A stretch of 64,000 nucleotides of DNA. Origin: Streptomyces xanthophaeus (lineage in GTDB: Bacteria; Actinomycetota; Actinomycetes; Streptomycetales; Streptomycetaceae). The stretch lies in NCBI RefSeq assembly GCF_000725805.1, contig NZ_KL647132.1:186001-250000 (forward strand), read 5' to 3'. Both the position numbers and the translations under genes were made by a program. This document shows, piece after piece, positions 37,668 to 54,309 of this stretch. Below the pieces are notes generated by a model that saw nothing but the letters and a program-made list of their open reading frames with translations, did no database searches and was not told the DNA's origin. Each line of letters starts with the position of its first letter. Within the stretch, counting starts at the first letter, position 1.

Positions 37668-38576
37668 TCAGCGCGCCCCGTACACCGGCAGCGGGGCCGG
37701 TGCGGACGCGAGGAGTTTCGCCGCGGCCTCGCCCGCCTCGGCCGGGGTCCAGCGGGCCCCGCGGTCCGCGGTGGGACCCGGCCGCCAGCCCTCCATGACC
37801 GTGATGCGGCCGCCCTCCACCTCGAAGACCCGGCCCGAGACCCCCGCCGAGGCCGTCGAGCCCAGCCAGACCACCAGCGGGGACACGTTCTCCGGCGCCA
37901 TCGCGTCGAAGCCGCCCTCCCCCGGAGCGGCCATGGTCTCGGCGAAGGTCTGCTCCGTCATCCGGGTCCGCGCGGCGGGGGCGATCGCATTGGCCTGGAC
38001 CCCGTAGCGCCCCATCTCGGCGGCCGCGACCAGGGTCATGCCGAGGATCCCGGCCTTGGCCGCGCTGTAGTTGCCCTGCCCGACCGAGCCCAGCAGTCCG
38101 GCCCCGGAGGAGGTGTTGACCACCCGCGCCGCCACCGGACGGCCGGCCTTCGCCTCGGCCCTCCACCACGCGGCGGCGCTGCGCAGCGGCAGGAAGTGCC
38201 CCTTGAGGTGGACCCGCATGACGGCGTCCCAGTCCTCCTCGTCCAGGTTGACGAGCATCCGGTCGCGCAGGAAGCCCGCGTTGTTGACGAGGGTGTCCAG
38301 CCGGCCGAAGGCCGTGACCGCGCACTCCACGAGGGAGGCGGCGCCCTCTGCGGTGGCGATGTCCCCGCCGTGCGCCACCGCCTCCCCGCCCCGCGCCCGG
38401 ATCTCCGCGACCACCTGCCCGGCCGGGCCGTCCGTCCCCGGGGCCCCGTCCAGGCCCACCCCCAGGTCGTTGACGACGACCTTCGCCCCCTCGGCCGCGA
38501 AGGCCAGGGCGTGGGCCCGGCCCAGCCCCCGTCCCGCGCCCGTCACGATGACCACTCGGCCTTCGGCAATGCCCAT
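37668..38576 (-). CDS. SDR-family (3R)-hydroxyacyl-CoA dehydrogenase-like enzyme of the steroid C/D-ring locus
   Basis: A 302-residue short-chain dehydrogenase. It has the cofactor motif TGAGRGLGRAHALAFAAEGA, NNAGFLRDRM, the catalytic Ser in NTSSGAGLLG and the YSAAKAG pair. The pattern, including the long insert after VVVNDLGVGLDG, matches the 17beta-HSD4/MaoC-partner type seen in Mtb Rv3548c, the neighbour of echA20. It follows the second SDR gene by one base on the minus strand, in the order known from the mycobacterial HIP cluster. It is probably a beta-oxidation step on a steroid-derived acyl-CoA; the exact substrate is unproven. Confidence 0.88.
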   Translation of the reverse strand: MGIAEGRVVIVTGAGRGLGRAHALAFAAEGAKVVVNDLGVGLDGAPGTDGPAGQVVAEIRARGGEAVAHGGDIATAEGAASLVECAVTAFGRLDTLVNNAGFLRDRMLVNLDEEDWDAVMRVHLKGHFLPLRSAAAWWRAEAKAGRPVAARVVNTSSGAGLLGSVGQGNYSAAKAGILGMTLVAAAEMGRYGVQANAIAPAARTRMTEQTFAETMAAPGEGGFDAMAPENVSPLVVWLGSTASAGVSGRVFEVEGGRITVMEGWRPGPTADRGARWTPAEAGEAAAKLLASAPAPLPVYGAR

Positions 38577-38577
38577 C

Positions 38578-39342
38578 TCAGCTCTCCTTGTTCACAGTTG
38601 CCGCATCCAGAAACGCCGGGCGCTCCCCGCCCCCGTGCACCAGCAGGCTCGCTCCGCTCACGTACGCGGCGCGGGCGGAGGCCAGGAACACGGCGGCCTC
38701 CCCCACGTCCGAGGGTTCGGCCAGCCGTCCCAGCGGTACGGTCGCGCCCACCGCCGCGATCCCTGCCTCGTCGCCGTAGTGCAGGTGGGACAGTTCGGTC
38801 CGCACCATGCCCAGGACCAGGGAGTTGACCCGTACCTCGGGCGCCCATTCCACGGCCAGGGACCGGGCCAGGCTCTCCAGTCCCGCCTTGGCCGCCCCGT
38901 ACGCGGCGGTGCCGGGCGAGGGCCGGGTGCCGCTCACGCTGCCGATCATGACGACCGAGCCCCGGGCCTCCCGCAGCCACGGGTAGGCCAGCAGGGAGGC
39001 GGTCATCGGGGCGGTCAGGTTGAGTTCGAGGATCCGTGCGTGGCGCTGCGGGCCGCCTTCGGCCAGCAGCCGGTACGGGGTGCCGCCGGCGTTGTTGACC
39101 AGGCAGTCGAGCCGTCCGTGGCGTGCGGCGACCGCGGCGAGGAAGTCCTCGACGGCTGCGGGGTCGCGCAGGTCGACCGCGCTGAAGGCGGCTTCCCGGC
39201 CGCCGGCGGTGACCGGCTGTGCGGGCGGGCGGCGTGCGCAGACGAAGACTTCGGCCCCGGCCGCGAGGAACGACCGGGCGATGCCGGCGCCGACGCCCCG
39301 GGTTCCGCCGGTGACGACGGCGACCCTCCCGTCGAGCTCCAT
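38578..39342 (-). CDS. SDR-family oxidoreductase (Rv3549c-like) of the steroid C/D-ring locus
   Basis: A 254-residue SDR with VTGGTRGVGAGIARSFLAAGA, NNAGGTPYRLLAEG, catalytic Ser in IGSVSGTRPS and YGAAKAGLESLA. The placement, divergent from echA20 across a KstR2-type box and upstream of the Rv3548c-like gene, copies Rv3549c of M. tuberculosis. It probably reduces or oxidises a hydroxyacyl-CoA or keto intermediate of HIP breakdown; the mycobacterial protein is itself not fully assigned. Transcription likely starts within the 56-base gap that holds the box. Confidence 0.88.
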   Translation of the reverse strand: MELDGRVAVVTGGTRGVGAGIARSFLAAGAEVFVCARRPPAQPVTAGGREAAFSAVDLRDPAAVEDFLAAVAARHGRLDCLVNNAGGTPYRLLAEGGPQRHARILELNLTAPMTASLLAYPWLREARGSVVMIGSVSGTRPSPGTAAYGAAKAGLESLARSLAVEWAPEVRVNSLVLGMVRTELSHLHYGDEAGIAAVGATVPLGRLAEPSDVGEAAVFLASARAAYVSGASLLVHGGGERPAFLDAATVNKES

Positions 39343-39363
39343 AGGCTGCTACCTTCCTCACCT

Positions 39364-39377
39364 AACAAATGTTTGGT
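39364..39377. promoter_or_regulatory. KstR2-type operator, echA20/SDR divergent promoter
   Basis: AACAAATGTTTGGT fits AnCAARnnYTTGnT, the relaxed form of the published KstR2 motif AnCAAGnnCTTGnT. It sits between two divergent transcripts. The extended 18-mer CTAACAAATGTTTGGTGG matches the second site (48943-48960, opposite strand) at 16 of 18 positions, which supports a shared regulator. Confidence 0.82.
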
Positions 39378-39398
39378 GGAAAGGTAGCTGATCCGTTC

Positions 39399-40148
39399 AT
39401 GGGTGTCTCCACCTCGAGCCCGGGCAAGGGCATCGCACGTGTCACAGTCGACTTCCCGCCCGTCAACGCGCTGCCGGTGCAGGGCTGGTACGACCTCGCC
39501 GACGCCCTGCGCGCCGCGGGCCGCGACCCCGAGGTCCGGTGCGTGGTCCTCGCCGCCGAGGGCCGCGGGTTCAACGCGGGCGTGGACATCAAGGAGATGC
39601 AGCGGGACGCGGGACACGCCTCCCTCATCGGCGCCAACCGCGGCTGCTACGAGGCCTTCGCCGCCGTGTACGAGTGCGAGGTGCCCGTCGTCGCGGCCGT
39701 GAACGGCTTCTGCCTGGGCGGCGGCATCGGCCTCGTCGGCAACGCCGACGCGATCGTCGCCTCCGAGGACGCGGTCTTCGGCCTGCCCGAGCTCGACCGG
39801 GGCGCCCTCGGCGCGGCCACCCACCTGGCCCGTCTCGTCCCGCAGCACCTGATGCGGGCGCTCTACTACACCTCGCGCACGGCGAGCGCCGCCGAACTGC
39901 ACGCGCACGGCTCGGTCTGGAAGGTGGTCCCGCGCGCGGAACTGGCCGGCGCCGCCCTGGAGCTGGCCGCCGAGATCGCGCGCAAGGACGGCTACCTGAT
40001 CCGGCTGGCCAAGGCCGCCATCAACGGCATCGACCCCGTGGACGTGCGCCGCAGCTACCGCTTCGAGCAGGGCTTCACCTTCGAGGCCAACCTCAGCGGG
40101 GTGGCCGACCGGGTCCGCGACACCTTCGGGAAGGAACCGCGTCCATGA
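39399..40148 (+). CDS. echA20: steroid-ring enoyl-CoA hydratase-family hydrolase EchA20
   Basis: A 249-residue crotonase-fold enzyme. The ATG at 39399 gives the EchA20 length and has GGAAAGG upstream. Distinctive stretches are RGFNAGVDIKEMQRD, AAVNGFCLGGGIGLVGNADA (oxyanion hole) and VFGLPELDRGALGAATHLAR, which I recognise from mycobacterial EchA20. In M. tuberculosis this enzyme hydrolytically opens the last steroid rings of HIEC-CoA. It heads a tight operon (echA20-ipdA-ipdB-ipdC) with a four-base ATGA overlap into ipdA, under the KstR2-type box. Confidence 0.93.
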   Translation: MGVSTSSPGKGIARVTVDFPPVNALPVQGWYDLADALRAAGRDPEVRCVVLAAEGRGFNAGVDIKEMQRDAGHASLIGANRGCYEAFAAVYECEVPVVAAVNGFCLGGGIGLVGNADAIVASEDAVFGLPELDRGALGAATHLARLVPQHLMRALYYTSRTASAAELHAHGSVWKVVPRAELAGAALELAAEIARKDGYLIRLAKAAINGIDPVDVRRSYRFEQGFTFEANLSGVADRVRDTFGKEPRP

Positions 40149-40996
40149 CCGACAAGACCATGACCCCGGAAGAGGTCGTCGGGCGGCTGCAGAGCGGGAT
40201 GACGCTCGGCATCGGCGGCTGGGGGTCGCGGCGCAAGCCCATGGCCCTGGTGAGAGCGCTGCTCCGGTCCGAGATCACGGATCTCACCGTGATCGCGTAC
40301 GGCGGCCCCGACGTGGGCCTGCTGGCCGCCGCGGGCCGCATCCGCAGGCTCGTGACCCCCTTCGCCACCCTCGACTCCATCCCCCTGGAACCCCACTTCC
40401 GGGCCGCCCGCGAGCGCGCCGCCTTCACCCTCACCGAGCTCGACGAGGCCATGTTCATGTGGGGCCTGCACGCCGCCGCCAACCGGCTGCCCTTCCTCCC
40501 CGTCCGGGCCGGTCTCGGCTCCGACGTGATGCGGGTCAACCCCGAGCTGCGCACCGTCACCTCGCCCTACGCGGACGGCGAGGAGTTCGTCGCCGTACCC
40601 GCCCTGCGCATGGACGCCGCCCTGGTCCACCTCAACCGCGCCGACCGCCTCGGCAACGCCCAGTACCTCGGCCCGGACCCCTACTTCGACGACCTGTTCT
40701 GCGAGGCCGCGGACACCGCCTACGTCTCCTGCGAGCAGCTGGTGGAGACCGCCGAGCTCGCCAAGGCCGGTCCCCCGCAGTCCCTGCTGGTCAGCAGGCA
40801 CTGCGTCACCGGCGTCGTGGAGAGCCCGAACGGCGCCCACTTCACCTCCTGCGTCCCCGACTACGACCGCGACGAGGCCTTCCAGAAGCTGTACGCCACC
40901 ACCCCGTGGCCCGAGTTCGCCGCCCGCTTCCTCTCCGGCGCGAGCGAGCACGACTACCAGTCCGCCGTCCGCACCTGGCACGAGGAGCAGCAGTGA
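40145..40996 (+). CDS. ipdA: COCHEA-CoA hydrolase subunit alpha IpdA
   Basis: A 283-residue member of the class I CoA-transferase fold. GMTLGIGGWGSRRKPMALVR, IAYGGPDVGLL, NRLPFLPVRAGLGSDV and GPDPYFDDLFCEAA match IpdA of Mycobacterium and Rhodococcus. IpdAB is a CoA-transferase-like heterotetramer that in fact hydrolyses a C-C bond to open the final ring (COCHEA-CoA). The pair is a marker for C/D-ring degradation of steroids. The start overlaps the echA20 stop by four bases, and ipdB follows with a GTGA overlap. Confidence 0.94.
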   Translation: MTDKTMTPEEVVGRLQSGMTLGIGGWGSRRKPMALVRALLRSEITDLTVIAYGGPDVGLLAAAGRIRRLVTPFATLDSIPLEPHFRAARERAAFTLTELDEAMFMWGLHAAANRLPFLPVRAGLGSDVMRVNPELRTVTSPYADGEEFVAVPALRMDAALVHLNRADRLGNAQYLGPDPYFDDLFCEAADTAYVSCEQLVETAELAKAGPPQSLLVSRHCVTGVVESPNGAHFTSCVPDYDRDEAFQKLYATTPWPEFAARFLSGASEHDYQSAVRTWHEEQQ

Positions 40997-41727
40997 GCAC
41001 CGCAAGCGTCACCCGCGCCGAGTACTGCGTCATCGCCTGCGCCGAGGCCTGGCGCGGCAACGGCGAGGTGCTCGCCAGTCCGATGGGCCTGATCCCCTCC
41101 TTCGGGGCCCGGCTCGCGAAGCGGACCTTCTCCCCCGACCTGCTGCTGACCGACGGCGAGGCCATGCTCGTCGGTCTCGACGGCACGGCCGAGGGCTGGC
41201 TCCCGTACCGGCGGCACCTGACGATGGTCACGGGCGGCAAGCGGCACGTGATGATGGGCGCCAGCCAGATCGACCGGTTCGGCAACCAGAACATCTCCTG
41301 CATCGGTGACTGGGAGCAGCCTGTCCGGCAGCTGCTGGGGGTGCGCGGCGCTCCCGTCAACACCTTGAACAATCCGGTGAGTTACTGGATCCCCCGGCAT
41401 TCGGCGCGGGTGTTCGTGGAGCGCGTCGACATGGTGAGCGGGGTCGGCCACGACCGTGCCCGGGAGGCCGGGGTGACCCGCTACCACCGGCTGCCGCGGG
41501 TGGTCAGCGATCTCGGGGTCTTCGATTTCACCGGTCCCGGCCAGAGCATGCGCCTGGCTTCGGTGCACCCCGGTGTGACCGTCGGGCAGGTGCGGGCGGC
41601 CACCGGTTTCGAGCTGGCCGCGGACGGCGAGGTGCCGTTCACGCGGGAGCCGGACGCGCAGGAGCTGCGGCTGATCCGTGAGGTGATCGACCCCAAGGGT
41701 CTGCGCGAGCGCGAAGTGCGGGGCTGA
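40993..41727 (+). CDS. ipdB: COCHEA-CoA hydrolase subunit beta IpdB
   Basis: A 244-residue beta subunit starting at a GTG inside the ipdA stop. ARLAKRTFSPDLLLTDGEAM, GKRHVMMGASQIDRFGNQNIS, LGVRGAPVNTLNN, VSDLGVFDFTGPGQSM and IREVIDPKGLREREVRG are IpdB signatures. The hydrolase active site lies at the IpdA-IpdB interface. One-to-one pairing and tight coupling support heteromer formation. Confidence 0.94.
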   Translation: MSTASVTRAEYCVIACAEAWRGNGEVLASPMGLIPSFGARLAKRTFSPDLLLTDGEAMLVGLDGTAEGWLPYRRHLTMVTGGKRHVMMGASQIDRFGNQNISCIGDWEQPVRQLLGVRGAPVNTLNNPVSYWIPRHSARVFVERVDMVSGVGHDRAREAGVTRYHRLPRVVSDLGVFDFTGPGQSMRLASVHPGVTVGQVRAATGFELAADGEVPFTREPDAQELRLIREVIDPKGLREREVRG

Positions 41728-41731
41728 TCCG

Positions 41732-42823
41732 GTGGAGACGGCGTTCACGGAGCTGGTGGGGGTCCGCCACCCCCTCGTACAGACGGGCATGGGCTGGGTG
41801 GCCGGTCCGCGGCTGGTGTCGGGCGCGGCGAACGCGGGCGCGCTGGGCATCCTGGCCTCGGCGACGATGACCCTGGACCAGCTGCGGTCGGCGGTGCGCG
41901 AGGTGAGGTCCCGTACCGGGGAGGGCGTGCCGTTCGGGGTCAACCTGCGTGCGGACGCCGGGGACGCGGCCGAGCGGGCGCAGCTGATCATCGACGAGGG
42001 CGTGCGGGTGGCCTCGTTCGCGCTCGCGCCGTCGAGGGAGCTGATCGCGCGGCTGAAGGACGCGGGCGTGGTCGTCATCCCGTCGGTCGGGGCGCGGCGG
42101 CACGCGGAGAAGGTGGCGGCCTGGGGTGCGGACGCGGTGATCGTGCAGGGCGGTGAGGGCGGGGGGCACACGGGGGACGTGGCCACGACGGTCCTGCTGC
42201 CGCAGGTCGTGGACGCGGTGGACGTCCCGGTGGTCGCGGCGGGCGGGTTCAGTGACGGACGGGGCCTGGTCGCGGCCCTGTCGTACGGGGCCGCGGGCAT
42301 CGCCATGGGCACCCGCTTCCTGCTGACCTCGGACTCGACGGTCCCGGACGCCGTCAAGGCGTGCTATCTGGCGGCCACGGTCAAGGACGTCACCGTCACC
42401 ACGGCCGTGGACGGGCTGCCGCACCGCATGCTCCGTTCGGAGCTGGTCGATGCGCTGGAGCGCTCTGGCCGTGCCGGGGCGCTGGTGCGGGCGGTGCGGC
42501 ATGCGGCGGGCTTCCGCAGGCTCTCCGGGCTGAGCTGGGCGCAGATGGTGCGCGACGGTCTCGCGATGAAACACGGCAAGGACCTGTCCTGGAGCCAGGT
42601 CCTGCTCGCCGCGAACACCCCCATGCTCCTCAAGGCGTCCATGGTCGAGGGCCGTACGGATCTCGGAGTCATGGCATCGGGCCAGGTCGCGGGGGTGATC
42701 GATGACCTCCCGTCCTGCGCGGAGCTCGTCTCCCGCGTCATGGCCGAGGCACACACCGTGCTGAAGCACCTGGAACAGCTGGAGCGACCGCACCCGCTCG
42801 GCACCCTGCCACCACCAGGGTGA
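41732..42823 (+). CDS. ipdC: FMN-dependent oxidoreductase IpdC (nitronate monooxygenase family)
   Basis: A 363-residue TIM-barrel flavoprotein. HPLVQTGMGWVAGPRLVSG, AVIVQGGEGGGHTGDVATT and VAAGGFSDGRGLVAALSYGA (FMN phosphate site) place it in the NMO/IpdC group. In mycobacteria IpdC, with IpdF, inserts the ring double bond that prepares HIP-derived CoA esters for EchA20. It starts four bases after ipdB and is the last gene of the operon. A plain nitronate monooxygenase is the alternative reading, but the context argues for IpdC. Confidence 0.9.
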   Translation: METAFTELVGVRHPLVQTGMGWVAGPRLVSGAANAGALGILASATMTLDQLRSAVREVRSRTGEGVPFGVNLRADAGDAAERAQLIIDEGVRVASFALAPSRELIARLKDAGVVVIPSVGARRHAEKVAAWGADAVIVQGGEGGGHTGDVATTVLLPQVVDAVDVPVVAAGGFSDGRGLVAALSYGAAGIAMGTRFLLTSDSTVPDAVKACYLAATVKDVTVTTAVDGLPHRMLRSELVDALERSGRAGALVRAVRHAAGFRRLSGLSWAQMVRDGLAMKHGKDLSWSQVLLAANTPMLLKASMVEGRTDLGVMASGQVAGVIDDLPSCAELVSRVMAEAHTVLKHLEQLERPHPLGTLPPPG

Positions 42824-42854
42824 TCTCCCTTCTCCGCCACAGGAGTCGCTACAG

Positions 42855-43793
42855 ATGAGCCGTGCCCGAATCCGCCTGGCGACCTCGGTGCTCGCCGCCG
42901 TTCTCGCCGTCGCGGGCCTGCCCGCTTCCGCGTTCGCCGCGCCCGCGCCGCAAGCCGCGTCCAGTGCCCGCTCCCCGCTCCGGTACCAGGCCGGTGCGGA
43001 GCCGATCGTCCAGATCCCGCTCCAGGGCGCCGTCAACGTCCGTGACCTGGGCGGCTACCGTACGTACACGGGGGGTCAGGTCCGTAAGGGGCTGGTCTAC
43101 CGCGCCGATGCGCTGAGCAAGCTGACCCCCTCGGACGTCTCCACCGTCGCCGGTCTGCGCCTCACGAAGGTCGTCGACTTCCGCATCCCGATGGAGCTCC
43201 AGTACGACGGCCCCGACAAGCTGCCCGCGGGGCTCTCCGCCACCTCGCGGCCGGTCAGCGATCTCGGCCTCTACGGCACCCTGGTGGGTGCCATCTCCAG
43301 CGGCGATCCCGTCAAGCAGGAGCAGATGCTCGGCGGTGGCCGCGCCGAGGCGTACATGCGCGACATCTACAGGACGTTCGTGACCAGCCCCGAGAACCGG
43401 GCGCAGTTCGCGACGACGCTGCGGGAGATCGCCGACGGCAAGCAGGGCCCGCTGCTGTACCACTGCACGTCCGGAAAGGACCGGACGGGCTGGACGAGCT
43501 ACGTGCTGCTGCGCGCCCTGGCCGTCCCGCAGGGCACGGCCGAGCGTGACTACCTGGCGTCGAACACCTTCCGGGCGGCCTACGACGCCCAGCTGCGGGC
43601 CGGGCTGAAGCAGTCGGGGCGGATGCAGAACCCGGATCTGCTGATCCCGCTCCAGGAGGTCCGCCAGGACTACCTGGACGCTGCGACGGACCGGCTGGAG
43701 GCCGACTACGGCAGCTTCTACGCGTACCTGACCGAGGGGCTGGGCCTGGACCTGCGGACCCTGGTGAAGCTCCAGGAGAAGCTGGTGCGCTGA
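42855..43793 (+). CDS. secreted tyrosine phosphatase (Y_phosphatase3)
   Basis: A 312-residue exported protein with CAGGAG before the ATG. The signal peptide is RIRLATSVLAAVLAVAGLPASAFA. The catalytic P-loop is LYHCTSGKDRTGW, with the C-x5-R core and a following Asp-containing start motif GAVNVRDLGGYRTYTGG. This is the PF13350 type, related to MptpB and lipid/protein phosphatases. It follows ipdC by 31 bases but has no evident link to steroid breakdown; it may simply be read through from that operon. Confidence 0.92.
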   Translation: MSRARIRLATSVLAAVLAVAGLPASAFAAPAPQAASSARSPLRYQAGAEPIVQIPLQGAVNVRDLGGYRTYTGGQVRKGLVYRADALSKLTPSDVSTVAGLRLTKVVDFRIPMELQYDGPDKLPAGLSATSRPVSDLGLYGTLVGAISSGDPVKQEQMLGGGRAEAYMRDIYRTFVTSPENRAQFATTLREIADGKQGPLLYHCTSGKDRTGWTSYVLLRALAVPQGTAERDYLASNTFRAAYDAQLRAGLKQSGRMQNPDLLIPLQEVRQDYLDAATDRLEADYGSFYAYLTEGLGLDLRTLVKLQEKLVR

Positions 43794-43809
43794 TCCGGGC
43801 CGGGAACGG

Positions 43810-43852
43810 CACGACGCCGGGCGGTGCGCAGTGCGCGCCGCCCGGCGTCGTG
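43810..43852. terminator. 15-bp hairpin between convergent phosphatase and helicase genes
   Basis: CACGACGCCGGGCGG (43810-43824) pairs perfectly with 43838-43852 around a GC-rich loop that can extend the stem. It fits a bidirectional terminator. Confidence 0.85.
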
Positions 43853-43865
43853 GTGGTGCGTGGGG

Positions 43866-45554
43866 TCAGGCCGAGCGTCGGCGTCCCTGGCCGGCGCCGC
43901 CGACCCGGCTGCGGGCCGAAGCCGCGGCCGCGCCGCCGGAGGCGTTGCCCGTGCTGCGGCGTCCGCGCTCGCCCGAGCCGGCTGCGGTTGCGCCCTGGCC
44001 GCCCTGGCCGCGGCGGGGCTGGCCGGAGCCGGCGGCCGGGGCCTGGCCCGCGGCGCCGCCGGAGGTGCGGCGTCCGCGGCCGCCCCCGGCCGCGGCGGTG
44101 CCGGTGGCGGAGCCGGTGCGCGGGCCGCCGGAGCGGCGGCGTCCGCCACCGCCGGTGCCCGAGCCGCCCTGGCCGGCGGAGCGCTGGCGCGGCGGGGTGG
44201 GCTGCGGCACGTCCAGGACGACGGGGATGCCCGAGGGCTCCTTGGCGCCGGTAAGGCGGGCCAGTTCCGCGTCGGAGGACTTGATCTGCGCGGTGCGCGG
44301 GGAGATCCCGGCGTCCGCCATGAGGCGGGTCATGTCCCGCTTCTGGTCGGGGAGCACCAGGGTGACCACGCTGCCGGACTCGCCGGCCCGGGCGGTGCGT
44401 CCGCCGCGGTGCAGGTAGTCCTTGTGGTCGGTGGGCGGGTCCACGTTGACGACGAGGTCGAGGTCGTCGATGTGGATGCCGCGGGCGGCGACGTTGGTGG
44501 CCACCAGTGCGGTGACCTCGCCCGTCTTGAACCAGTCCAGGGTCCGGTTGCGCTGCGGCTGGGAGCGGCCGCCGTGCAGGCCGGAGGCGCGGACGCCGTC
44601 GGCGAGGAGCTTCTTGACCATGCGGTCGACCCCGCGCTTGGTGTCGACGAACATGATCACCCGGCCGTCGCGAGCGGCTATACGCGTCGCCACGGCCTTC
44701 TTGTCGGTCTCGTCCATGACGTACAGGACGTGGTGCTCCATGGTGGTGACCGCGCCGGCCGACGGGTCGACGGAGTGGCCGACCGGGTCGGTGAGGAACA
44801 TCTTGACGAGCTTGTCGATGTTCTTGTCGAGCGTGGCGGAGAACAGCATGGTCTGGCCGCCGGGCGCGACCTGCTTGAGCAGGGCGGTGACCTGCGGCAT
44901 GAAGCCCATGTCGGTCATCTGGTCGGCCTCGTCGAGGACCGTGATGGCGACCTGGGAGAGGTCGGCGTCACCGCGGTCGATGAGGTCCTTCAGGCGGCCG
45001 GGGGTGGCGACGAGCACCTCGGAGCCGCGGCGCAGGGCGCCCGACTGCCGGTTGATCGACATGCCGCCGACGACGGTCGCGATGCGCAGGTTGACGGACG
45101 TGGCGTAGGGCGCCAGGGCGTCGGTGACCTGCTGGGCGAGCTCGCGGGTCGGTACGAGGACCAGGGCGAGCGGGGCCTTGGGCTCCGCGCGGCGGCCTGC
45201 GGTGCGGGCCAGCAGTGCCAGGCCGAAGGCGAGGGTCTTGCCGGAGCCGGTGCGGCCGCGGCCGAGGAGGTCACGGCCGGCGAGGGAGTTCGGCAGGGTG
45301 GCTGCCTGGATCGGGAACGGCTCGGTGACGCCCTGGGCGGCGAGGGTCTTCAGCAGCGCCTCGGGCATGTCCATGTCGCCGAACGCCTCGACGGCCGGGA
45401 GGGCCGGGGTCAGCGGTACGGGCATGGTGAATTCTTGGGGCCTGGCCACGGGGGCGGACTTCTGCCGTCCCGCGCCAGCCTTCGGACGTCCCTGGGCCGC
45501 ACCTCGGCCCCGGGTGGGGCGGCGGCTGGGTCGTGCGGAGCTGGAGCTGGTCAT
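43866..45554 (-). CDS. DEAD-box ATP-dependent RNA helicase (RhlE/CsdA-like)
   Basis: A 562-residue helicase with AGGAGGG before the ATG at 45554. A short basic N-terminus precedes the core: Q motif (FPIQAATLPNSLAGRDLLG), motif I GRTGSGKT, Ia PTRELAQQ, Ib ATPGRL, II VLDEADQM (DEAD), III SATLD, V ATNVAARGIHIDDLD and VI HRGGRTARAG. The C-terminal ~140 residues are Arg/Gly/Ser/Ala repeats typical of RNA-binding tails. It is downstream of the cold-shock gene, so a role in unwinding structured mRNA at low temperature is likely. Confidence 0.94.
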   Translation of the reverse strand: MTSSSSARPSRRPTRGRGAAQGRPKAGAGRQKSAPVARPQEFTMPVPLTPALPAVEAFGDMDMPEALLKTLAAQGVTEPFPIQAATLPNSLAGRDLLGRGRTGSGKTLAFGLALLARTAGRRAEPKAPLALVLVPTRELAQQVTDALAPYATSVNLRIATVVGGMSINRQSGALRRGSEVLVATPGRLKDLIDRGDADLSQVAITVLDEADQMTDMGFMPQVTALLKQVAPGGQTMLFSATLDKNIDKLVKMFLTDPVGHSVDPSAGAVTTMEHHVLYVMDETDKKAVATRIAARDGRVIMFVDTKRGVDRMVKKLLADGVRASGLHGGRSQPQRNRTLDWFKTGEVTALVATNVAARGIHIDDLDLVVNVDPPTDHKDYLHRGGRTARAGESGSVVTLVLPDQKRDMTRLMADAGISPRTAQIKSSDAELARLTGAKEPSGIPVVLDVPQPTPPRQRSAGQGGSGTGGGGRRRSGGPRTGSATGTAAAGGGRGRRTSGGAAGQAPAAGSGQPRRGQGGQGATAAGSGERGRRSTGNASGGAAAASARSRVGGAGQGRRRSA

Positions 45555-45611
45555 GCGGAAATGCCCTCCTGAAACCGGCAGGTACAACAAAAAGGTCGAA
45601 ACAGCAGACAA

Positions 45612-45645
45612 GCCGGGGCCCGCACCTCGCGGTGCGGACCCCGGC
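45612..45645 (-). terminator. 15-bp hairpin after the cold-shock gene
   Basis: GCCGGGGCCCGCACC (45612-45626) and GGTGCGGACCCCGGC (45631-45645) pair with one wobble around TCGC. Reading the minus strand, a T-rich stretch including TTTTT lies about 20-30 bases further on. It probably makes a short abundant csp mRNA with partial read-through to the helicase. Confidence 0.8.
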
Positions 45646-45657
45646 CAGCTGAAATAC

Positions 45658-45864
45658 TTAGTTGGCGGGGAGGATGTTCTCCGCCTGGGGGCCCTTCTGG
45701 CCCTGGGTGACGTCGAAGGACACGCGCTGGCCCTCCTGGAGCTCACGGAAGCCCTGGGTGGCGATGTTCGAGTAGTGGGCGAAGACGTCCGGGCCGCCAC
45801 CGTCCTGCTCGATGAAGCCGAAGCCCTTTTCCGAGTTGAACCACTTCACGGTGCCAAGTGCCAT
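45658..45864 (-). CDS. cold-shock protein (CspA family)
   Basis: A 68-residue single-domain RNA-binding protein with AGGAGA before the ATG at 45864. It has the RNP1 motif KGFGFIEQ and the RNP2 region DVFAHYSNI; most Streptomyces paralogues have DVFVH here. It ends [15 protein letters not shown]. It acts as an RNA chaperone. A hairpin lies in its leader. Confidence 0.95.
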
Positions 45865-45925
45865 TTTAAATCTCCTGAATAGGCGGCAAAGGGCCCCATC
45901 CGGAGAGTCCGGCAAAACAATAAAA

Positions 45926-45953
45926 GCGCCTGAGGAACATTCCCGTCAGGCGC
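45926..45953 (-). promoter_or_regulatory. hairpin in the csp mRNA leader
   Basis: GCGCCTGA (45926-45933) pairs with TCAGGCGC (45946-45953), about 60-90 bases upstream of the csp start. The surrounding 45865-46138 is AT-richer than the genome and otherwise empty. Leader structures control csp mRNA in other bacteria, but whether this one is inside the transcript is not known. Confidence 0.45.
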
Positions 45954-46138
45954 ACATAAAGTTCATGGGTACCACAACTGCAACGCGTCCAAAGCTAGCA
46001 CACCTCGGCCGGGAAGTGTCACTGGTGGTGTGCGAGCTCACTCTCACGTGGTACCCGCGCACCCGCATGGCCCGCCCCTGCGGCCCCGCCCGCGCCGCGC
46101 GACAGCAGCACGGCGCGGGCCCCGCGGCGGGCGGCCGC

Positions 46139-47296
46139 TCACAGCCGTTCGATGATCGTCACGTTCGCCTGGCCGCCGCCCTCGCACATCGTCTGGAGGC
46201 CGAAGCGGCCTCCGGTGCGTTCCAGCTCGTGGAGCAGGGTGGTCATGAGCTTGACGCCGGTCGCGCCCAGCGGGTGGCCCAGGGCGATCGCGCCGCCGTT
46301 GACGTTGACCTTCTCCGGGTCGGCGCCCGTCTCCTTCAGCCAGGCCAGCACCACGGGGGCGAAGGCCTCGTTGATCTCCACCAGGTCGATGTCGGCCGGC
46401 GACATGCCCGTCTTCTTCAGGGCGTACGCGGTGGCCGGGATGGGGGCCGACAGCATGCGGATGGGGTCCTCGCCGCGGACGGAGAGGTGGTGGATGCGGG
46501 CCCGCGGCCGCAGGCCGTGCTCGCGGACCGCCCGTGCGGAGGCGATCAGCATGGCCGCCGCGCCGTCCGAGACCTGCGAGGAGACCGCGGCCGTGATGGT
46601 GCCGCCCTCCACCACCGGTTTCAGGCCCGCCATCTTCTCCAGGGTGGTGTCCCGCCGCGGGCCCTCGTCCGCGGTCACCTCCCCGTACGCCACCGTCTCG
46701 CGCGCGAAGCGGCCCTCGTCGAGGGCGCGCAGTGCCCGCTGGTGGGACCGCAGGGCGAATTCCTCCATGTCGCGGCGCGAGATGCCCCACTTGCGCGCGA
46801 TCAGCTCGGCCCCGTGGAACTGGTTGACCGGGGCGTCCCCGTACCGGGCCCGCCAGCCCTCGCTGCCCGCGTAGGGGCCCTCCGTGAGGCCCAGCGGCTC
46901 GGCGGCCTGCCGGGAGGCGAAGGCGATGGGGATCATCGACATGTTCTGGGTGCCGCCCGCGACGACGAGGTCCTGGGTGCCGGAGAGGACGCCCTGGGCC
47001 GCGAAGTGCACCGCCTGCTGGGAGGAGCCGCACTGGCGGTCGACGGTGACCCCGGGGACCTCCTCCGGCAGGCCCGCCGCCAGCCATGCCGTCCGCGCGA
47101 TGTCCCCCGCCTGCGGCCCCACCGTGTCGAGGCAGCCGAACACCACGTCCTCCACGGCGGCCGGGTCCACCCCGGAGCGCTCGACCAGCGCCTTGAGGAC
47201 GTGCGCGCCCAGGTCGGCCGGGTGGACGGCGGACAGGGCGCCTTTGCGCCGCCCCACGGGGGTGCGTACGGCTTCGACGATGTAGGCCTCAGGCAT
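46139..47296 (-). CDS. fadA6: steroid C/D-ring thiolase FadA6
   Basis: A 385-residue thiolase with GAGGAGT before the ATG. The active-site Cys is in [18 protein letters not shown], the His in [15 protein letters not shown] and the second Cys in [33 protein letters not shown] is the FadA6 form of the thiolase motif. In mycobacteria FadA6 thiolyses the beta-keto acyl-CoA formed after IpdAB opens the last ring. It is the last gene of the ipdF-kstR2-fadA6 run, 19 bases after kstR2. Confidence 0.92.
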
Positions 47297-47315
47297 CGGG
47301 ACTCCTCGGATCGGG

Positions 47316-47942
47316 TTACGTACGCAGGGCGATCCCGTCCAGCACCATCGAGAGGTACTGGCGGGCGATCTCCTCGGGGCTGTGCTGTCCGCCGGGCCGG
47401 TACCAGGAGGCCGCCACCCACACCGTGTCGCGGACGAAGCGGTAGGTGAGGCGGACGTCGAGGTCGGCGCGGAACACCTTCGCGGCGACCCCGCGCTCCA
47501 GCGTCCCCAGCCAGGCCTTCTCGAACTTCTGCTGCGAGTCGGCGAGGTAGTGGAAGCGTGGCTGGACCGACAGGTGGCGGGACTCCTTCTGGTAGATCGC
47601 GACGGCGTCGCGGTGCCGGTCGATCTCCCGGAAGGACTCGGTGACCAGGGCCTCGATGGTCTCCCTGGGGCCGAGGCCGGCCGCCAGGACGGTGTCGTAG
47701 CCCTGCCACAGCTCGGTCAGGAAGGCGGAGAGGATCTCGTCGAGCATCGATTCCTTGGAATCGAAGTGGTAGTAGAGGCTGCCGGCGAGCATCCCGGCGG
47801 CGTCGGCGATCTTGCGGACGGTGGTGGCGTTGTAGCCCTGCGCGGCGAAGACCTCGGCGGCGGTGGCGAGGAGTTCCCTGCGACGCTCGGGCGAAGCGGT
47901 CACCTGCGGCTTCTTCTTGGCTGTCGGCTTGTTCGTTGGCAC
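47316..47942 (-). CDS. kstR2: TetR-family repressor KstR2
   Basis: A 208-residue TetR regulator starting at a GTG at 47942 with a Lys-rich N-tail (TNKPTAKKKPQ). The helix-turn-helix is ATTVRKIADAAGMLAGSLYYHF. The ligand-binding half has YQKESRHLSVQPRFHYLAD, YRFVRDTVWVAASWYRPGG and QYLSMVLDGI, the pattern of mycobacterial KstR2. KstR2 represses the HIP regulon and is released by HIP-CoA. Two matching operators occur in this window. Its own start lies just after a 165-bp palindrome. Confidence 0.9.
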   Translation of the reverse strand: MPTNKPTAKKKPQVTASPERRRELLATAAEVFAAQGYNATTVRKIADAAGMLAGSLYYHFDSKESMLDEILSAFLTELWQGYDTVLAAGLGPRETIEALVTESFREIDRHRDAVAIYQKESRHLSVQPRFHYLADSQQKFEKAWLGTLERGVAAKVFRADLDVRLTYRFVRDTVWVAASWYRPGGQHSPEEIARQYLSMVLDGIALRT

Positions 47943-47959
47943 GGGCCCATTCTGGGGCC

Positions 47960-48124
47960 AGGGGGTGTCTGGTGGATCTCCGTGAGGGAAGGAGCGGCGT
48001 CCGGTGCGTGCTCTCGGCGTGCCGGATGAAAGCCCCCGTACTGGCCGTACTCGGGCTTTCGTCCGGTGCGGCGAGAGTGCGTGCCGGGCGTCGCGACGCC
48101 GCGGAGATCCACCAGACACCCCCT
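47960..48124. repeat. 165-bp imperfect palindrome (MITE-like element or complex terminator)
   Basis: The 23-base ends (47960-47982 and 48102-48124) are perfect inverted repeats. A co-centred inner palindrome (48022-48041 with 48047-48066) pairs at 17 of 20 positions around TGGCC. The intervening arms pair only partly (CTCTCG against CGAGAG). The right end includes the first two bases of the ipdF stop codon. Size, terminal repeats and GC-rich symmetry resemble a miniature transposable element, but no target duplication is clear. In RNA it would be a very long hairpin between ipdF and kstR2. Confidence 0.75.
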
Positions 48125-48905
48125 AGGCGTGCTGGCTGCTGACCGAGACGGTCTCGCCCGTCATGTACGACGAGTAGCCGCTGGCCAGGAAGACGATGAC
48201 GTTGGCGACCTCCCAGGGCTCGGCGTAGCGGCCGAAGGCCTCGCGGGCGGTCAGTTCGGCGAGCACTTCCTCGCTGGTGACCTTCACCAGGTGCGGGTGC
48301 ATGGCCAGGCTCGGTGCGACCGCGTTGACGCGTACGCCGAACTCGGCGGCCTCCAGGGCCGCGCAGCGGGTCAGGGCCATCACCCCGGCCTTCGCGGCGG
48401 CGTAGTGGGCCTGGCCGCTCTGGGCGCGCCAGCCGACGACGGAGGCGTTGTTGACGACGACCCCGCCGCGCCCGGCGGCCTTCAGGGAGCGCAGTGCGGC
48501 GCGGGTGCAGCGGAAGGTGCCGTTCAGGGTGACGTCGAGGACCCGCGACCACTGGTCGTCGGTCATGTCGACGAGTGCGGCGGTGCCGCCCAGGCCCGCG
48601 TTGTTGACCACGACGTCGAGGCCGCCGTGCAGGTGCCCGGCGCGGGCGAAGAGGGCCTGGACCTGGTCCTCGTCGGTGACGTCGCAGGCCAGGGAGGCGA
48701 CCTTGGCGGACCCGAACTCGGCGGCGAGCGCCTCCTCGGTCTCCTTCAGGCGGCGGGCGTGGGCGTCGCTGATGAGGATGCGGGCCCCTTCCTCCAGGAA
48801 ACGGCGGGCGGTGGCGCCGCCGATGCCCGCCCCGGCCGCTGCGGTGATGACGGCGCAGCGGCCCTCCAGCAGGCCGTGGCCGGCCAGGTAGCGGGGCTCG
48901 TTCAT
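48123..48905 (-). CDS. ipdF: SDR-family steroid-ring dehydrogenase IpdF
   Basis: A 260-residue SDR with GAGGAGTG before the ATG. ITAAAGAGIGGATARRFLEEGA is a variant cofactor loop (TAAAGxGIG rather than TGxxxGxG) shared with Mtb Rv3559c. NNAGLGGTAALVDMTDDQW, NNASVVGWRAQ, HYAAAKAGVMALTRC and YSSYMTGETVSVSSQHA match that protein along the length. IpdF oxidises the 5-hydroxyl of the HIP skeleton as its CoA ester. The gene is divergent from the acyl-CoA dehydrogenase pair across a KstR2-type box. Confidence 0.9.
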   Translation of the reverse strand: MNEPRYLAGHGLLEGRCAVITAAAGAGIGGATARRFLEEGARILISDAHARRLKETEEALAAEFGSAKVASLACDVTDEDQVQALFARAGHLHGGLDVVVNNAGLGGTAALVDMTDDQWSRVLDVTLNGTFRCTRAALRSLKAAGRGGVVVNNASVVGWRAQSGQAHYAAAKAGVMALTRCAALEAAEFGVRVNAVAPSLAMHPHLVKVTSEEVLAELTAREAFGRYAEPWEVANVIVFLASGYSSYMTGETVSVSSQHA

Positions 48906-48944
48906 GCGCACTCCTCGACGCTGCTCATGGCCGTACGTTAACCT

Positions 48945-48958
48945 ACCAAACACTTGTT
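48945..48958. promoter_or_regulatory. KstR2-type operator, ipdF/acyl-CoA dehydrogenase divergent promoter
   Basis: ACCAAACACTTGTT fits AnCAARnnYTTGnT and matches the published KstR2 consensus AnCAAGnnCTTGnT with one change. It lies in the 81-base divergent gap, 40 bases upstream of ipdF. Its reverse complement is nearly the same as the site at 39362-39379. Confidence 0.83.
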
Positions 48959-48986
48959 AGGGAAGCGTGGAGGGGGCGGGCACCTG

Positions 48987-50132
48987 ATGGATCTGACCCA
49001 GACGGCGGAGGTGGCGGCCTTCCGGGCCGAGGCCCGGGCCTGGCTGGCCCGGCACGTACCGGCCACGCCCCTGCCGTCCCTGGAGACGCGGGCGGGCTTC
49101 GCGGCCCACCGGGAGTGGGAGGCCCTGCTGCACGCCGGCCGCTGGGCGGTGGTGTCCTGGCCCGAGGAGTACGGGGGCCGCGGCGCGGACATCGTGCGCT
49201 GGCTGGTCTTCGAGGAGGAGTACTGGGCGGCGGGCGCGCCCGGCCGGGTCTCGCAGAACGGCATCAGCCTGCTCGCCCCGACCCTCTTCGACCACGCGAG
49301 CCCCGCCCAGCGGGCCCGGGTGCTGCCGTCCATGGCGAGCGGCGAGGTGGTCTGGGCCCAGGCCTGGTCGGAGCCGGAGGCGGGCTCCGACCTCGCCTCG
49401 CTGACCTCGCGGGCCGAACGCACCGACGGGGGCTGGCTGCTGACCGGACAGAAGACCTGGTCCTCGCGGGCGGCCTTCGCGGACCGCGCCTTCGGCATCT
49501 TCCGCACCGACCCGCAGGCCGCACGGCCCCACCAGGGGCTCACCTACCTGATGTTCGACCTGCGGGCGCCCGGGGTGACGGTGCGGCCCATCGGCCGCCT
49601 GGACGGCAAACCGGCCTTCGCGGAGCTCTTCCTGGACCGGGTCTTCGTCCCGGACGAGGACGTCATCGGTGAGCCGGGCCAGGGCTGGCGGATCGCGATG
49701 TCGACCACCGGCAACGAGCGGGGCCTGACCCTGCGCTCCCCCGGCCGGTTCCTGGCGGCCGCCGGACGGCTCCTCGCCCTGTGGCAGGAGAGCGGCGACC
49801 CCGGCGACACCGCGCTGCGGGACCGGGTGGCCGACGCGCTGGTGGGGGCCCGCGCCTACGAACTGTTCACCTGGGGAAACGCCTCCCGCTTCGCGGCGGG
49901 CGAGACCATCGGCGCCGAGTCGAGCCTGAACAAGGTCTTCTGGTCGGAGTACGACATCGCCCTCCACGAAACGGCCCTGGACCTGCTGGGGCCGGACGCC
50001 GAACTCGCCGACGGCGCCTGGGCCGAACCGTGGATCTTCTCCCTGGCCGGACCGATCTACGCCGGGACCAACGAGATCCAGCGCGACATCATCGCCGAGC
50101 GGCTGCTCGGCCTCCCGAAGGGCCGCCGCTGA
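48987..50132 (+). CDS. acyl-CoA dehydrogenase, FadE31-type, of the steroid C/D-ring locus
   Basis: A 381-residue flavoprotein with GGAGGGGG before the ATG at 48987. WPEEYGGRGADIVRWLVFEE, WAQAWSEPEAGSDLASL (FAD/substrate motif), GQKTWSSRAAFADRAFG and GPIYAGTNEIQRDIIAERLL are full acyl-CoA dehydrogenase signatures. The WLVFEEEYWAAGAPGR stretch is like mycobacterial FadE31. In the HIP pathway such proteins work as alpha2-beta2 pairs with a second, divergent FadE. The next gene overlaps by one base (TGATG), so the two subunits are coupled. Confidence 0.88.
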   Translation: MDLTQTAEVAAFRAEARAWLARHVPATPLPSLETRAGFAAHREWEALLHAGRWAVVSWPEEYGGRGADIVRWLVFEEEYWAAGAPGRVSQNGISLLAPTLFDHASPAQRARVLPSMASGEVVWAQAWSEPEAGSDLASLTSRAERTDGGWLLTGQKTWSSRAAFADRAFGIFRTDPQAARPHQGLTYLMFDLRAPGVTVRPIGRLDGKPAFAELFLDRVFVPDEDVIGEPGQGWRIAMSTTGNERGLTLRSPGRFLAAAGRLLALWQESGDPGDTALRDRVADALVGARAYELFTWGNASRFAAGETIGAESSLNKVFWSEYDIALHETALDLLGPDAELADGAWAEPWIFSLAGPIYAGTNEIQRDIIAERLLGLPKGRR

Positions 50133-51157
50133 TGCGCTTCCTGCTGACCGACGAGCAGGGCGACTACGCCCGCACCCTGCGCTCATTGCTGGCCTCGGCG
50201 GACGTGCCCGCGGCGGTACGTGCCTGGGCGGACGGCGACCACGCGCCCGGGCTGGCGCTCTGGTCGAGGCTGGCGGACACGGGGCTGACCGCGCTGGCCG
50301 CGCCCGAGGCCTACGACGGCGCGGGCCTGCTCCCGCTGGAGCTGTGCCTCGGCCTCGTCGAGGCGGGCCGGGCCGGGGTGCCGGGGCCGGTGGTGGAGAG
50401 CGCGGCCGTCTCGGTGCTGCTGACCGGGCTGGCGGACGACGCGCTGTCGAAGCGGTTCCTGCCGGGCCTGGTCGCGGGCCGGGCCGCGGCCACGCTGACC
50501 CTGGCCGGCGGGAGCCCGTACGCCCTGGACGCGGACGCCGCCGCGCACTGCTTCACCGTGTCGGCGGCGGGCGAACTCCGCCTGGCCCCGGGCCCCTGGC
50601 AGGCGAAGCGGTCCACGGACCCGGCGCGCAGGCTGTTCCTGCCCCCGGCCGCCGGGGGCGAACTCCTCGCGCAGGGGCCCCGGGTCACGGCGGCCGCGCA
50701 CCGCGCCGCGCAGTGGGCCCGGCTGCTGACGGCGGCCCAGTGCCTGGGCGTGGGCGAGGCACTGCTGGCGCACACGGTGGAGTACGTGCGCCGGCGCACC
50801 CAGTTCGGGACGCCGATCGGCGGCTTCCAGGCGGTCAAGCACCGCCTCGCGGACACCCTGCTGGCCCTGGAGTTCGCCCGGCCCCTGGTCCGGGCGGCGG
50901 CCCTGTCCCTGGCGCCGGGCGAGGTCGCGGCCGCCAAACTGACGGCGGGCGAGGCCTGTTACCGGGCCGCGATGACCGCCCTCCAGCTGCACGGCGCGGT
51001 CGGCTACACCGAGGAGCTCGACCTGTCCCTGTGGCTGCGCAAGGCCCGCCCGCTGCGCGACGCGTGGGGGACGCCGTCGCAGTGCCGGGCGGAGGTCGTG
51101 CGCTGCGCCGGCCCCGGGACGGGCGGGCCGGACCCCGTCACACCCGGGCGACGCTGA
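50132..51157 (+). CDS. acyl-CoA dehydrogenase partner subunit (FadE32/33-type)
   Basis: A 341-residue, shortened acyl-CoA dehydrogenase. The N-terminal helices (LLTDEQGDYARTLRSLLA) and the C-terminal domain (CLGVGEALLAHTVEYVRRRTQFGTPI and MTALQLHGAVGYTEELDLSL) are conserved. The middle FAD-binding motif is poorly conserved, as in half-subunits of heteromeric steroid FadEs. RTQFGTPIGGFQAVKHRLAD is the classic signature. It almost certainly pairs with the upstream protein. Its 3' end overlaps the convergent methyltransferase gene by 20 bases. Confidence 0.88.
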   Translation: MRFLLTDEQGDYARTLRSLLASADVPAAVRAWADGDHAPGLALWSRLADTGLTALAAPEAYDGAGLLPLELCLGLVEAGRAGVPGPVVESAAVSVLLTGLADDALSKRFLPGLVAGRAAATLTLAGGSPYALDADAAAHCFTVSAAGELRLAPGPWQAKRSTDPARRLFLPPAAGGELLAQGPRVTAAAHRAAQWARLLTAAQCLGVGEALLAHTVEYVRRRTQFGTPIGGFQAVKHRLADTLLALEFARPLVRAAALSLAPGEVAAAKLTAGEACYRAAMTALQLHGAVGYTEELDLSLWLRKARPLRDAWGTPSQCRAEVVRCAGPGTGGPDPVTPGRR

Positions 51158-53550: not shown

Positions 53551-54309
53551 GTGACGGGAAGTGCGATCAGCCTGCGCAAGGTCCAGGAGACGGCTCCGGC
53601 GCTCGTGGGCCTCTACGAGAGCGCCGGGGCGGCCCTCGGCAGGTACGGCCTGGAGGGCGGGCGCGCCTGCGTGTACCTGGTCCTGGACTACTCGGGGTCG
53701 ATGCGCCCGTACTACGCGGACGGCAGCGTGCAGGCCCTCGCCGACCGGGTGCTGGGGCTCTCCGCGCACCTGGACGACGACGCGCGGGTGCCGGTGGTGT
53801 TCTTCTCCACCGAGGTCGACGCGGTGGAGGAGGTCTCCCTGTCCGGCCACGAGGGCAGGGTCACCGAGATCGCCTCCCGCCTGGGCCACATGGGCAAGAC
53901 GTCCTACCACGCGGCGATGGACGCGGTCATCGACCACTACCTGGACTCGGGGTCCTCGGCCCCCGCCCTGGTCGTCTTCCAGACCGACGGCGGGCCGGTC
54001 AACAAGCTCGCGGCGGAGAAGTACCTGTGCAAGGCGGCCCGGCTGCCGCTGTTCTGGCAGTTCGTCGGCTTCGGCAACACGCGCAGCTCGCAGTTCGACT
54101 TCCTGCGCCGGCTCGACGAGCTGCCCGTCCCGGGCAGGCGGCCGGTGGACAACGCGGGCTACTTCCACGCGGGCATGGACCCGCGCGCGGTGCCGGACGA
54201 CGAGCTGTACGACCGGCTGGTCGCGGAGTTCCCCAGGTGGCTGGCGGCGGCGCGCCGGGAGGGAATCGTACGGTCCGTGCAGGAACAGGGCGCTTTGATG
54301 GCACCATGA
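53551..54309 (+). CDS. VWA-domain protein (TerF-like)
   Basis: A 252-residue cytosolic protein starting at a GTG behind GAGGAGGACG. The metal-binding MIDAS motif is [13 protein letters not shown] with later TSYHA and QTDGG residues. [10 protein letters not shown] and [10 protein letters not shown] match the vWA-TerF-like family (PF10138) linked to tellurite/chemical stress operons. TerD/TerC genes are absent here. It lies ten bases after padR, and its stop overlaps the next start, so the three genes are probably co-transcribed. Confidence 0.85.

Follow-up and report, generated by a model that had tools for sequence, protein, structure and literature searches.

Among described systems, the closest to the locus considered here are the KstR2 regulons of Mycobacterium and Rhodococcus, whose products break down the last two steroid rings (C and D). 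According to PMC5380842, IpdF, IpdC, EchA20, IpdAB and FadA6 turn the coenzyme A (CoA) thioester 5-OH-HIC-CoA into MOODA-CoA in vitro, FadE32 acts after MOODA-CoA, and the effector of the repressor KstR2 is HIP-CoA; the same paper cites Hashimoto and Hayakawa 1977 for a streptomycete that accumulated MOODA when growing on HIP. The kstR2 regulon has been reported to be highly conserved among actinomycetes (PMC3068626), and in a genome survey from 2016, 55 of 57 Streptomyces genomes were classed as unable to degrade steroids (PMC4810484). Here we describe a 64,000-nucleotide stretch of Streptomyces xanthophaeus, hereafter the window (G000:C1:186001-250000, from the genome G000 of 8.62 Mb in 162 contigs, rated 100% complete), in which positions 37668-51157 carry a steroid C/D-ring gene locus.

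As judged from gene calls (frame-composition gene caller) and protein families (NCBIfam with its curated cut-offs for all proteins but FadE32, and Pfam), this locus comprises two short-chain dehydrogenases/reductases (SDRs), EchA20, IpdA, IpdB, IpdC, FadA6, KstR2, IpdF, FadE31 and FadE32, i.e. the full enzyme set for 5-OH-HIC-CoA to MOODA-CoA, plus FadE31/32 and KstR2. We consider it probable that this is a stand-alone C/D-ring opening core of the KstR2 type, which degrades HIP, or a bicyclic keto acid much like it, and not whole steroids. SDR1 and SDR2 point leftwards, echA20-ipdA-ipdB-ipdC rightwards with ends that overlap or almost touch, and beyond three bystander genes fadA6, kstR2 and ipdF again point leftwards, away from fadE31 and fadE32:

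37668..38576, minus strand: SDR1, counterpart of the Rv3548c-type SDR (NCBIfam PRK07791, 487 bits against a cut-off of 373; syntenic in relatives)
38578..39342, minus strand: SDR2, counterpart of the Rv3549c-type SDR (NCBIfam PRK07856, 374 against 255)
39361..39380, plus strand: putative KstR2-type operator between SDR2 and echA20, the palindrome CCTAACAAATGTTTGGTGGA
39399..40148, plus strand: EchA20, predicted HIEC-CoA (ring D) hydrolase (NCBIfam PRK07938, 418 against 260)
40145..40996, plus strand: IpdA, alpha subunit of the predicted COCHEA-CoA (ring C) hydrolase (6co6_A, E 1.4e-98)
40993..41727, plus strand: IpdB, its beta subunit (6co6_B, E 1.2e-86)
41732..42823, plus strand: IpdC, predicted FabK-like 5-OH HIC-CoA reductase (TIGR03151 (FabK) at 231 bits, below the cut-off of 453; named from position and synteny)
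42888-43793: tyrosine phosphatase, bystander (Pfam)
43866-45849: helicase and cold-shock protein, bystanders (judged by eye)
46139..47296, minus strand: FadA6 thiolase (NCBIfam PRK07801, 701 against 591; 72% to FadA6 of Rhodococcus jostii)
47316..47942, minus strand: KstR2, TetR repressor (2ibd, E 6.2e-65; 4w97, E 1.9e-54; 57% to R. jostii KstR2)
48123..48905, minus strand: IpdF (NCBIfam PRK07831, 448 against 336; 64% to R. jostii IpdF)
48942..48961, plus strand: putative KstR2-type operator between ipdF and fadE31, CCTACCAAACACTTGTTAGG, with one mismatch to AnCAAGnnCTTGnT
48987..50132, plus strand: FadE31, acyl-CoA dehydrogenase (63% to R. jostii FadE31, 37% to FadE30)
50132..51157, plus strand: FadE32, its acyl-CoA dehydrogenase partner (42% to R. 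jostii FadE32; Pfam Acyl-CoA_dh)

Curated NCBIfam cut-offs were passed by five of these proteins (SDR1, SDR2, EchA20, FadA6 and IpdF); IpdA, IpdC, KstR2 and FadE31 fell below every such cut-off, and IpdB had no NCBIfam match. Among solved structures, the mycobacterial IpdAB chains (6co6, 6coj, 6con) match IpdA and IpdB far better than do other CoA transferases, the next best being a glutaconate CoA-transferase (2.4e-26 and 9.8e-15, respectively), and Glu101 of IpdA aligns with the glutamate that the 6coj sequence has as alanine, i.e. the catalytic residue is retained. KstR2 has its best solved matches in 2ibd and in chains named KstR2 (4w97), with the next regulator at 1.2e-20. The R. jostii reference genes come from strain NBRC 16295 (L020) and were named from their order in PMC5380842. 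A preliminary description, made from the DNA alone, had named most of these genes and read them as a C/D-ring (HIP) locus, with the block from the SDRs to ipdC laid out as in Mycobacterium tuberculosis; each gene that it named was borne out by gene calls and families, their order and orientations agree with those tabulated for the KstR2 regulon in PMC5380842, the two divergent acyl-CoA dehydrogenases that it left unnamed turned out to be FadE31/FadE32, and the gene identities support its overall reading. Thus IpdAB with its catalytic glutamate, EchA20, IpdC, IpdF, FadA6, FadE31 and FadE32 are all present, together with KstR2 and operator-like sequences of the AnCAAGnnCTTGnT type in the divergent promoters, while FadD3, FadE30 and FadE33 are not in the cluster and have paralogues on another contig, C30, instead.

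The published KstR2 motif is AnCAAGnnCTTGnT, and binding has been proven by electrophoretic mobility shift assay at the mycobacterial counterpart of the SDR2/echA20 promoter (PMC3068626). With at most one mismatch, this motif occurs at three places in the window (0.29 expected), of which only 48945-48958 lies inside the cluster, in the 81 bases that separate ipdF from fadE31. The palindrome CCTAACAAATGTTTGGTGGA has two mismatches to the published core (at 39363) and occupies the same place as the mycobacterial site with proven binding (PMC3068626); it fits 19 of the 20 positions of an extended pattern, but since that 20-base pattern was derived from the two window sites their fit is by construction, and only its absence elsewhere is informative. 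Apart from these two, nothing scanned exceeded 16 of 20 positions, and when all 35 genomic occurrences of CAARNNYTTG were inspected the sites at 39361 and 48942 were the only fits. In all 17 loci that cover the SDR2/echA20 region (the sequence of L110 stops short of it) the palindrome is conserved apart from minor differences, and the EchA20 start codon is likewise kept in 17 aligned loci. Among 22 loci scanned (the window, L103-L122 and L138), the ipdF promoter is present in 12, and the 14-base core of the ipdF/fadE31 site is identical in 11 of them (the window, L109, L113, L115-L120, L122 and L138) and one base off in L114. The motif scan of the window gave no box directly before kstR2. KstR2 is predicted, from sequence, to act at both divergent promoters.

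Within the ipdF region, the likely start of the gene is an ATG behind a GAGGAG site, whereas the caller had placed it at 48911. Between kstR2 and ipdF there is a 165-bp element (47960-48124) with 23-nt perfect terminal inverted repeats that resembles a miniature inverted-repeat transposable element (MITE); it abuts the ipdF stop codon, and in genome G054 kstR2 and ipdF were called close together.

The preliminary description had stated that no fadD3 and no ring A/B genes were in view, and this holds for the genes tested in the window: with E up to 1e-6, no tblastn match to KshA, HsaC, HsaE, HsaF, HsaG, FadD3, FadE30, FadE33 or EchA13 exceeded 45% identity, and there were no remnants of fadE30, echA13, kshA or hsaC. 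It had not remarked that FadE30, FadE33 and EchA13 are missing from the cluster as well. Its doubt about cholesterol as the substrate gains force from the whole genome, in which KshA (PF19298) had no match at 1e-3, where positive genomes score 270-320 bits, and HsaC had none at 1e-5. The genome-wide search that it called for did find a KstD on contig C19, and on C30 a FadE30 paralogue and a FadD3-family ligase, so that the absence of fadD3 stands for the window cluster and not for the genome. The HsaC search matched 10 of 22 genomes, with 47-73% identity in five strong-KshA genomes besides the query's own and weak partial matches in G007 and G202; HsaC-like proteins in two genomes without strong KshA (G009:C1:7748112-7748861, 42%; G091:C1:8418726-8419478, 46%) may be other extradiol dioxygenases.

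The KstD (G000:C19:90169-91812; L169:10161-11876) scores 894.5 against a PRK07843 cut-off of 788, and KstD-like matches were found in 19 of the 22 genomes tried. By eye, its start region looks like an export signal. Its surroundings were considered as a hidden upper-pathway cluster and rejected, the neighbours being non-steroid genes save for an Ltp-like thiolase (32%) and a partial hydratase-like open reading frame (36%).

To see how far this arrangement extends, 150 genomes of the genus (G000 included) were scored for IpdA (E <=1e-40) and for strong KshA (PF19298 >=270 bits). IpdA is present in 103 of them, a cluster-type FadE30 (65-69% to that of R. jostii) in 17 and strong KshA in nine, and these sets are nested: every genome with strong KshA also has the cluster-type FadE30, and every genome with the latter has IpdA. 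This leaves 94 IpdA-containing genomes without strong KshA. Any PF19298 match at all was seen in 39 of the 150 (38 above the Pfam cut-off) and in 43 of 197 genomes sampled from the class; the weaker ones, which we judge to be other Rieske oxygenases, were left out of the KshA counts, there being no genus score between 283 and 101 bits and, in the class list, some matches at 135-170 bits. In the class sample IpdA was found in 47 genomes and strong KshA in 21, all of which carry IpdA; the 26 with IpdA and no strong KshA comprise ten of the genus itself, seven of family f14, five of f18, three of f17 and one of f12. All eight f14 genomes examined lack strong KshA, with weaker PF19298 matches in G162 (135 bits) and G271 (95 bits).

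Of the nine genomes of the genus with strong KshA, seven have kshA and ipdA within 3-13 kb of each other. The kshA gene is preceded by hsaE/G/F-type genes in L107, L109 and L112, and hsaA/C/D/B- and kstD-type genes are nearby in L108 and L112 (all by eye except in L112, where NCBIfam cut-offs are passed by HsaA, HsaD, HsaG and HsaF but not by HsaC, HsaB, KstD or the HsaE-type hydratase, and where no NCBIfam family matches KshA at 1e-40). The IpdA proteins of KshA-containing genomes are 73-92% identical to that of the window and are interleaved with those of KshA-lacking genomes, which suggests that the upper pathway was lost repeatedly in the genus. In one relative, G038, decay is caught in place: a broken fadE30, kept only from about residue 172 (the N-terminal half is gone), and an echA13 missing about 100 internal residues stand where the window has neither (L115:1087-2404).

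The steps missing from the cluster have candidates in a second locus on contig C30 (about 30-75 kb), where R. jostii FadE30 found a 59% match (G000:C30:39486-40661) and R. jostii FadD3 a 51% match (G000:C30:67734-69245) that scores 798 for the FadD3 family against a cut-off of 657. The region holds two CoA ligases, two Amidohydro_2 proteins, four acyl-CoA dehydrogenases, two hydratase-like proteins, an SDR resembling SDR1 (43%), a zinc alcohol dehydrogenase, a flavin reductase, a flavin monooxygenase (FMO) and a TetR regulator, in addition to two thiolase-like Ltp and two ChsH2-like proteins, one pair of which is adjacent; pathway candidates are mixed with unrelated genes. The best solved match of a C30 Ltp is 6ok1 (2.9e-98), which we take to be a steroid side-chain aldolase. 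The locus is syntenic in G054 and G042, with most shared genes 77-98% identical, and with gaps in G023.

The two loci tend to occur together. A C30-type FadE30 (mostly 59-64% to R. jostii) was found in 90 of the 103 IpdA-containing genomes as opposed to three of the 47 others, two of which are only 78-79% complete; the two types were told apart by identity and E-value rather than by a tree of all copies, among the best 12 FadE30 (and best 10 FadD3) candidates per genome. With either type counted, the figures are 100 of 103 and three of 47, including several partial matches (the shortest in G020 and G024), and a stricter cut-off with both types lumped gave 98 of 103. The types also tend to replace one another: among IpdA-containing genomes ten have the cluster type only, 83 the C30 type only, seven both and three neither (Fisher 1.9e-7, kinship ignored). 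FadE30 alone was used here because FadD3 copies (48-57%) cannot be separated into cluster and C30 types by identity. An example is G015, which keeps the cluster fadE30, has no C30-type FadE30 among the candidates listed, and lacks the SDR-FadE30-alcohol dehydrogenase part in the 40 kb read. In G054 one contig carries both the C30-type locus and ipdA, some 2.2 Mb apart, so that joint loss would take more than one deletion. A tree built from a conserved ligase of 20 genomes (six of the 47 without IpdA and 14 of the 103 with it) requires the IpdA state to have changed at least three times.

In the distant family f14, homologues of the two gene sets are physically joined. One cluster (L147) holds homologues of the C30 SDR (SDR_35-like, 64%), zinc alcohol dehydrogenase (ADH_37-like, 60%) and ligase (FadD3_63-like, 56%) next to IpdF (69%), an aldehyde dehydrogenase, FadE30, FadA6 (74%), FadE31, FadE32, a CoA-transferase III and a flavin reductase, and in L146, L148 and L150 a TetR_54-like gene (48-50%) adjoins SDR2/echA20-ipdABC. 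The C30 flavin reductase is 54% identical to the f14 one, and in a FadE30 tree the C30-type and f14 copies group together (90/92), apart from cluster-type copies. A CoA-transferase III about 24 kb past the window cluster (G000:C1:260253) was rejected as a pathway member, being 29% identical to its f14 namesake. At the end of the f14 cluster (L147:16234-17415) a flavin reductase domain and an IclR-type regulator domain are fused in one frame. Three f17 loci (L155, L156 and L157) have FadE30, flavin-reductase-like and Ltp/ChsH2-like genes (38-45% to C30) side by side; these three genomes have no KshA match and their gene set echoes C30.

Taken together, the gene content suggests the following scheme. 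By homology, IpdF and IpdC would yield HIEC-CoA from a thioester of the 5-OH-HIC-CoA type; ring D would be hydrolysed by EchA20 and ring C by IpdAB, FadA6 would split off acetyl-CoA to leave MOODA-CoA, and FadE31/32 would start the beta-oxidation of the latter. Bound at the two operators, KstR2 would keep both divergent promoters silent until it takes up a thioester resembling HIP-CoA. Acid activation and side-chain removal (the FadD3, FadE30, FadE33 and EchA13 steps) may be supplied by C30 through its FadE30 paralogue, IpdE2-like dehydrogenase, FadD3-family ligase, SDR and zinc alcohol dehydrogenase; C30 also has a TetR of its own. The core would then be detached from the 9,10-seco pathway, and the bacterium would probably live on ring fragments that other organisms leave behind or on a similar compound with two rings. 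We propose a detached core fed by C30 because the steps missing from the cluster are those for which C30 has candidates, and we favour HIP as the substrate because KstR2, whose effector is HIP-CoA, and its operators have been retained, and because a streptomycete accumulating MOODA on HIP is on record (both as given in PMC5380842).

Several observations weigh against this scheme. No KstR2 box was found at C30, so that the scan gave no support for its co-regulation with the cluster; many of its genes have no known role in HIP degradation, and its IpdE2-like dehydrogenase falls below the IpdE2 cut-off (207 against 450). Substitution between FadE30 types is not strict, given the seven genomes with both and the three with neither, and the way in which types were assigned and candidates limited bears on those counts. 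In the ligase tree C30 followed IpdA in two or three of three independent pairs, too few for significance. The branch that unites C30-type and f14 FadE30 is below the tree's own star mark, and by BLAST the f14 FadE30 is nearest to a cluster-type Streptomyces copy (63-66%). Finally, a KstD above its curated cut-off fits some steroid chemistry, which also tells against a purely non-steroid reading.

One may therefore ask whether whole steroids are degraded after all, by an upper pathway without recognizable KshA or HsaC in which KstD and the Ltp/ChsH2-like proteins take part and HIP is a normal intermediate. The KstD on C19, the wide occurrence of KstD-like proteins and the 6ok1-like Ltp and ChsH2-like proteins on C30 would fit, but neither KshA nor HsaC was found in a genome rated complete, FadE30, FadD3 and EchA13 are gone from the cluster, KstD sits apart from steroid genes, and the genomes that have strong KshA (9/150 and 21/197) all carry IpdA; we regard this explanation as unlikely. 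Slightly better placed, though still rather improbable, is a non-steroid bicyclic terpenoid (from plants, fungi or the organism itself) that is delivered through C30, with HIP a chance substrate, a mechanism that overlaps with the one we favour. The lack of strong KshA in 94/103 genus and 26/47 class genomes with IpdA points this way, as do the C30 homologues tied to core genes in f14, a family with no strong KshA in any of the eight genomes examined; on the other hand, KstR2 and its operators are kept, suggesting that a HIP-CoA-like effector is kept too, no gene indicates a named terpenoid, and KstD is present.

A third alternative, a decaying and now functionless relict of a former steroid pathway, could draw on the missing KshA and HsaC, the broken fadE30 and echA13 of G038 and the MITE-like insert between ipdF and kstR2. 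Against it, all 11 genes are open, the operators are conserved, and the ratios of nonsynonymous to synonymous substitution (dN/dS) of all 11 are 0.06-0.37 relative to the near relatives G054 and G134 and 0.21-0.47 relative to the more distant G089; by these sequence comparisons the genes appear to be under purifying selection, and we consider a relict very improbable. A broader and more tentative reading, for which we see some chance but which we would not bet on, is that ring opening by IpdAB is not steroidal at root. It would be the shared end of a genus-wide, two-locus pathway for bicyclic terpenoid acids with its own FadE30/FadD3/aldolase upper module, found in Streptomyces and other actinobacterial families, to which the KshA/Hsa module is an optional addition in about 6% of these species.

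The enzymes and the regulator are already known, as is the use of HIP by one streptomycete. Among the matches listed in full-text literature, with subscription journals mostly outside its scope, no paper treats the ipdAB/KstR2 locus as a general Streptomyces trait; relative to that literature, what appears to be new is that the locus occurs throughout the genus in the absence of KshA, that the losses are nested and that a second locus accompanies it. Set beside the survey of PMC4810484, the finding that 103 of 150 genus genomes carry the end part of the pathway (with IpdA as marker), 94 of them without strong KshA, points to a widespread and largely unassigned capacity of soil Streptomyces, either to use steroid fragments that other microorganisms release or to use some other natural substrate through a pathway familiar from tuberculosis. 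Which compounds supply IpdAB in organisms that do not degrade steroids thereby becomes directly testable in harmless, genetically tractable bacteria.

As to the surroundings, the flanking order polA...gltD-gltB...lgt-trpA-trpB is presumably that of Streptomyces coelicolor. A vWA-TerF-like protein (53551-54309) adjoins a PadR regulator and is again found beside the ring-opening genes in several related loci (L119, L120, L138), and at 55129-57505 two small WXG100-looking proteins and then a 566-aa protein form, by eye, a group related to type VII secretion. Among records of the plasmid collection, the best named match to IpdA is from Streptomyces sp. BHT-5-2 (82.7%).

Compared with the KstR2 regulon of Mycobacterium and Rhodococcus (Rv3548c-Rv3564 type), the window shares the SDR pair divergent to echA20-ipdA-ipdB-ipdC, the fadA6, kstR2 and ipdF genes, fadE31-fadE32 and a KstR2-type box in the SDR2/echA20 promoter. 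It differs from that cluster in lacking fadD3, fadE30, fadE33 and echA13, in having ipdF divergent to fadE31 with a second putative operator there and none directly before kstR2, and in that helicase, cold-shock and phosphatase genes separate its halves. The clusters of strong-KshA members of the genus (for instance G076 and G023) have the same core, and operator sequences are the same in G076, G023 and G012; unlike the window, G076 and G012 keep fadE30 and echA13, while G023 has echA13 in the cluster and fadE30 beside kshA. In the two HIP-type loci of f14, where no KstR2 was seen in the stretches read, EchA20-IpdA-IpdB-IpdC with SDR2, as well as IpdF, FadA6, FadE31, FadE32 and homologues of the C30 FadE30, ADH_37, SDR_35 and FadD3, resemble the combined gene set of S. 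xanthophaeus, but the C30-type homologues lie inside the ring-opening cluster itself and a TetR_54 homologue stands beside SDR2/echA20-ipdABC.

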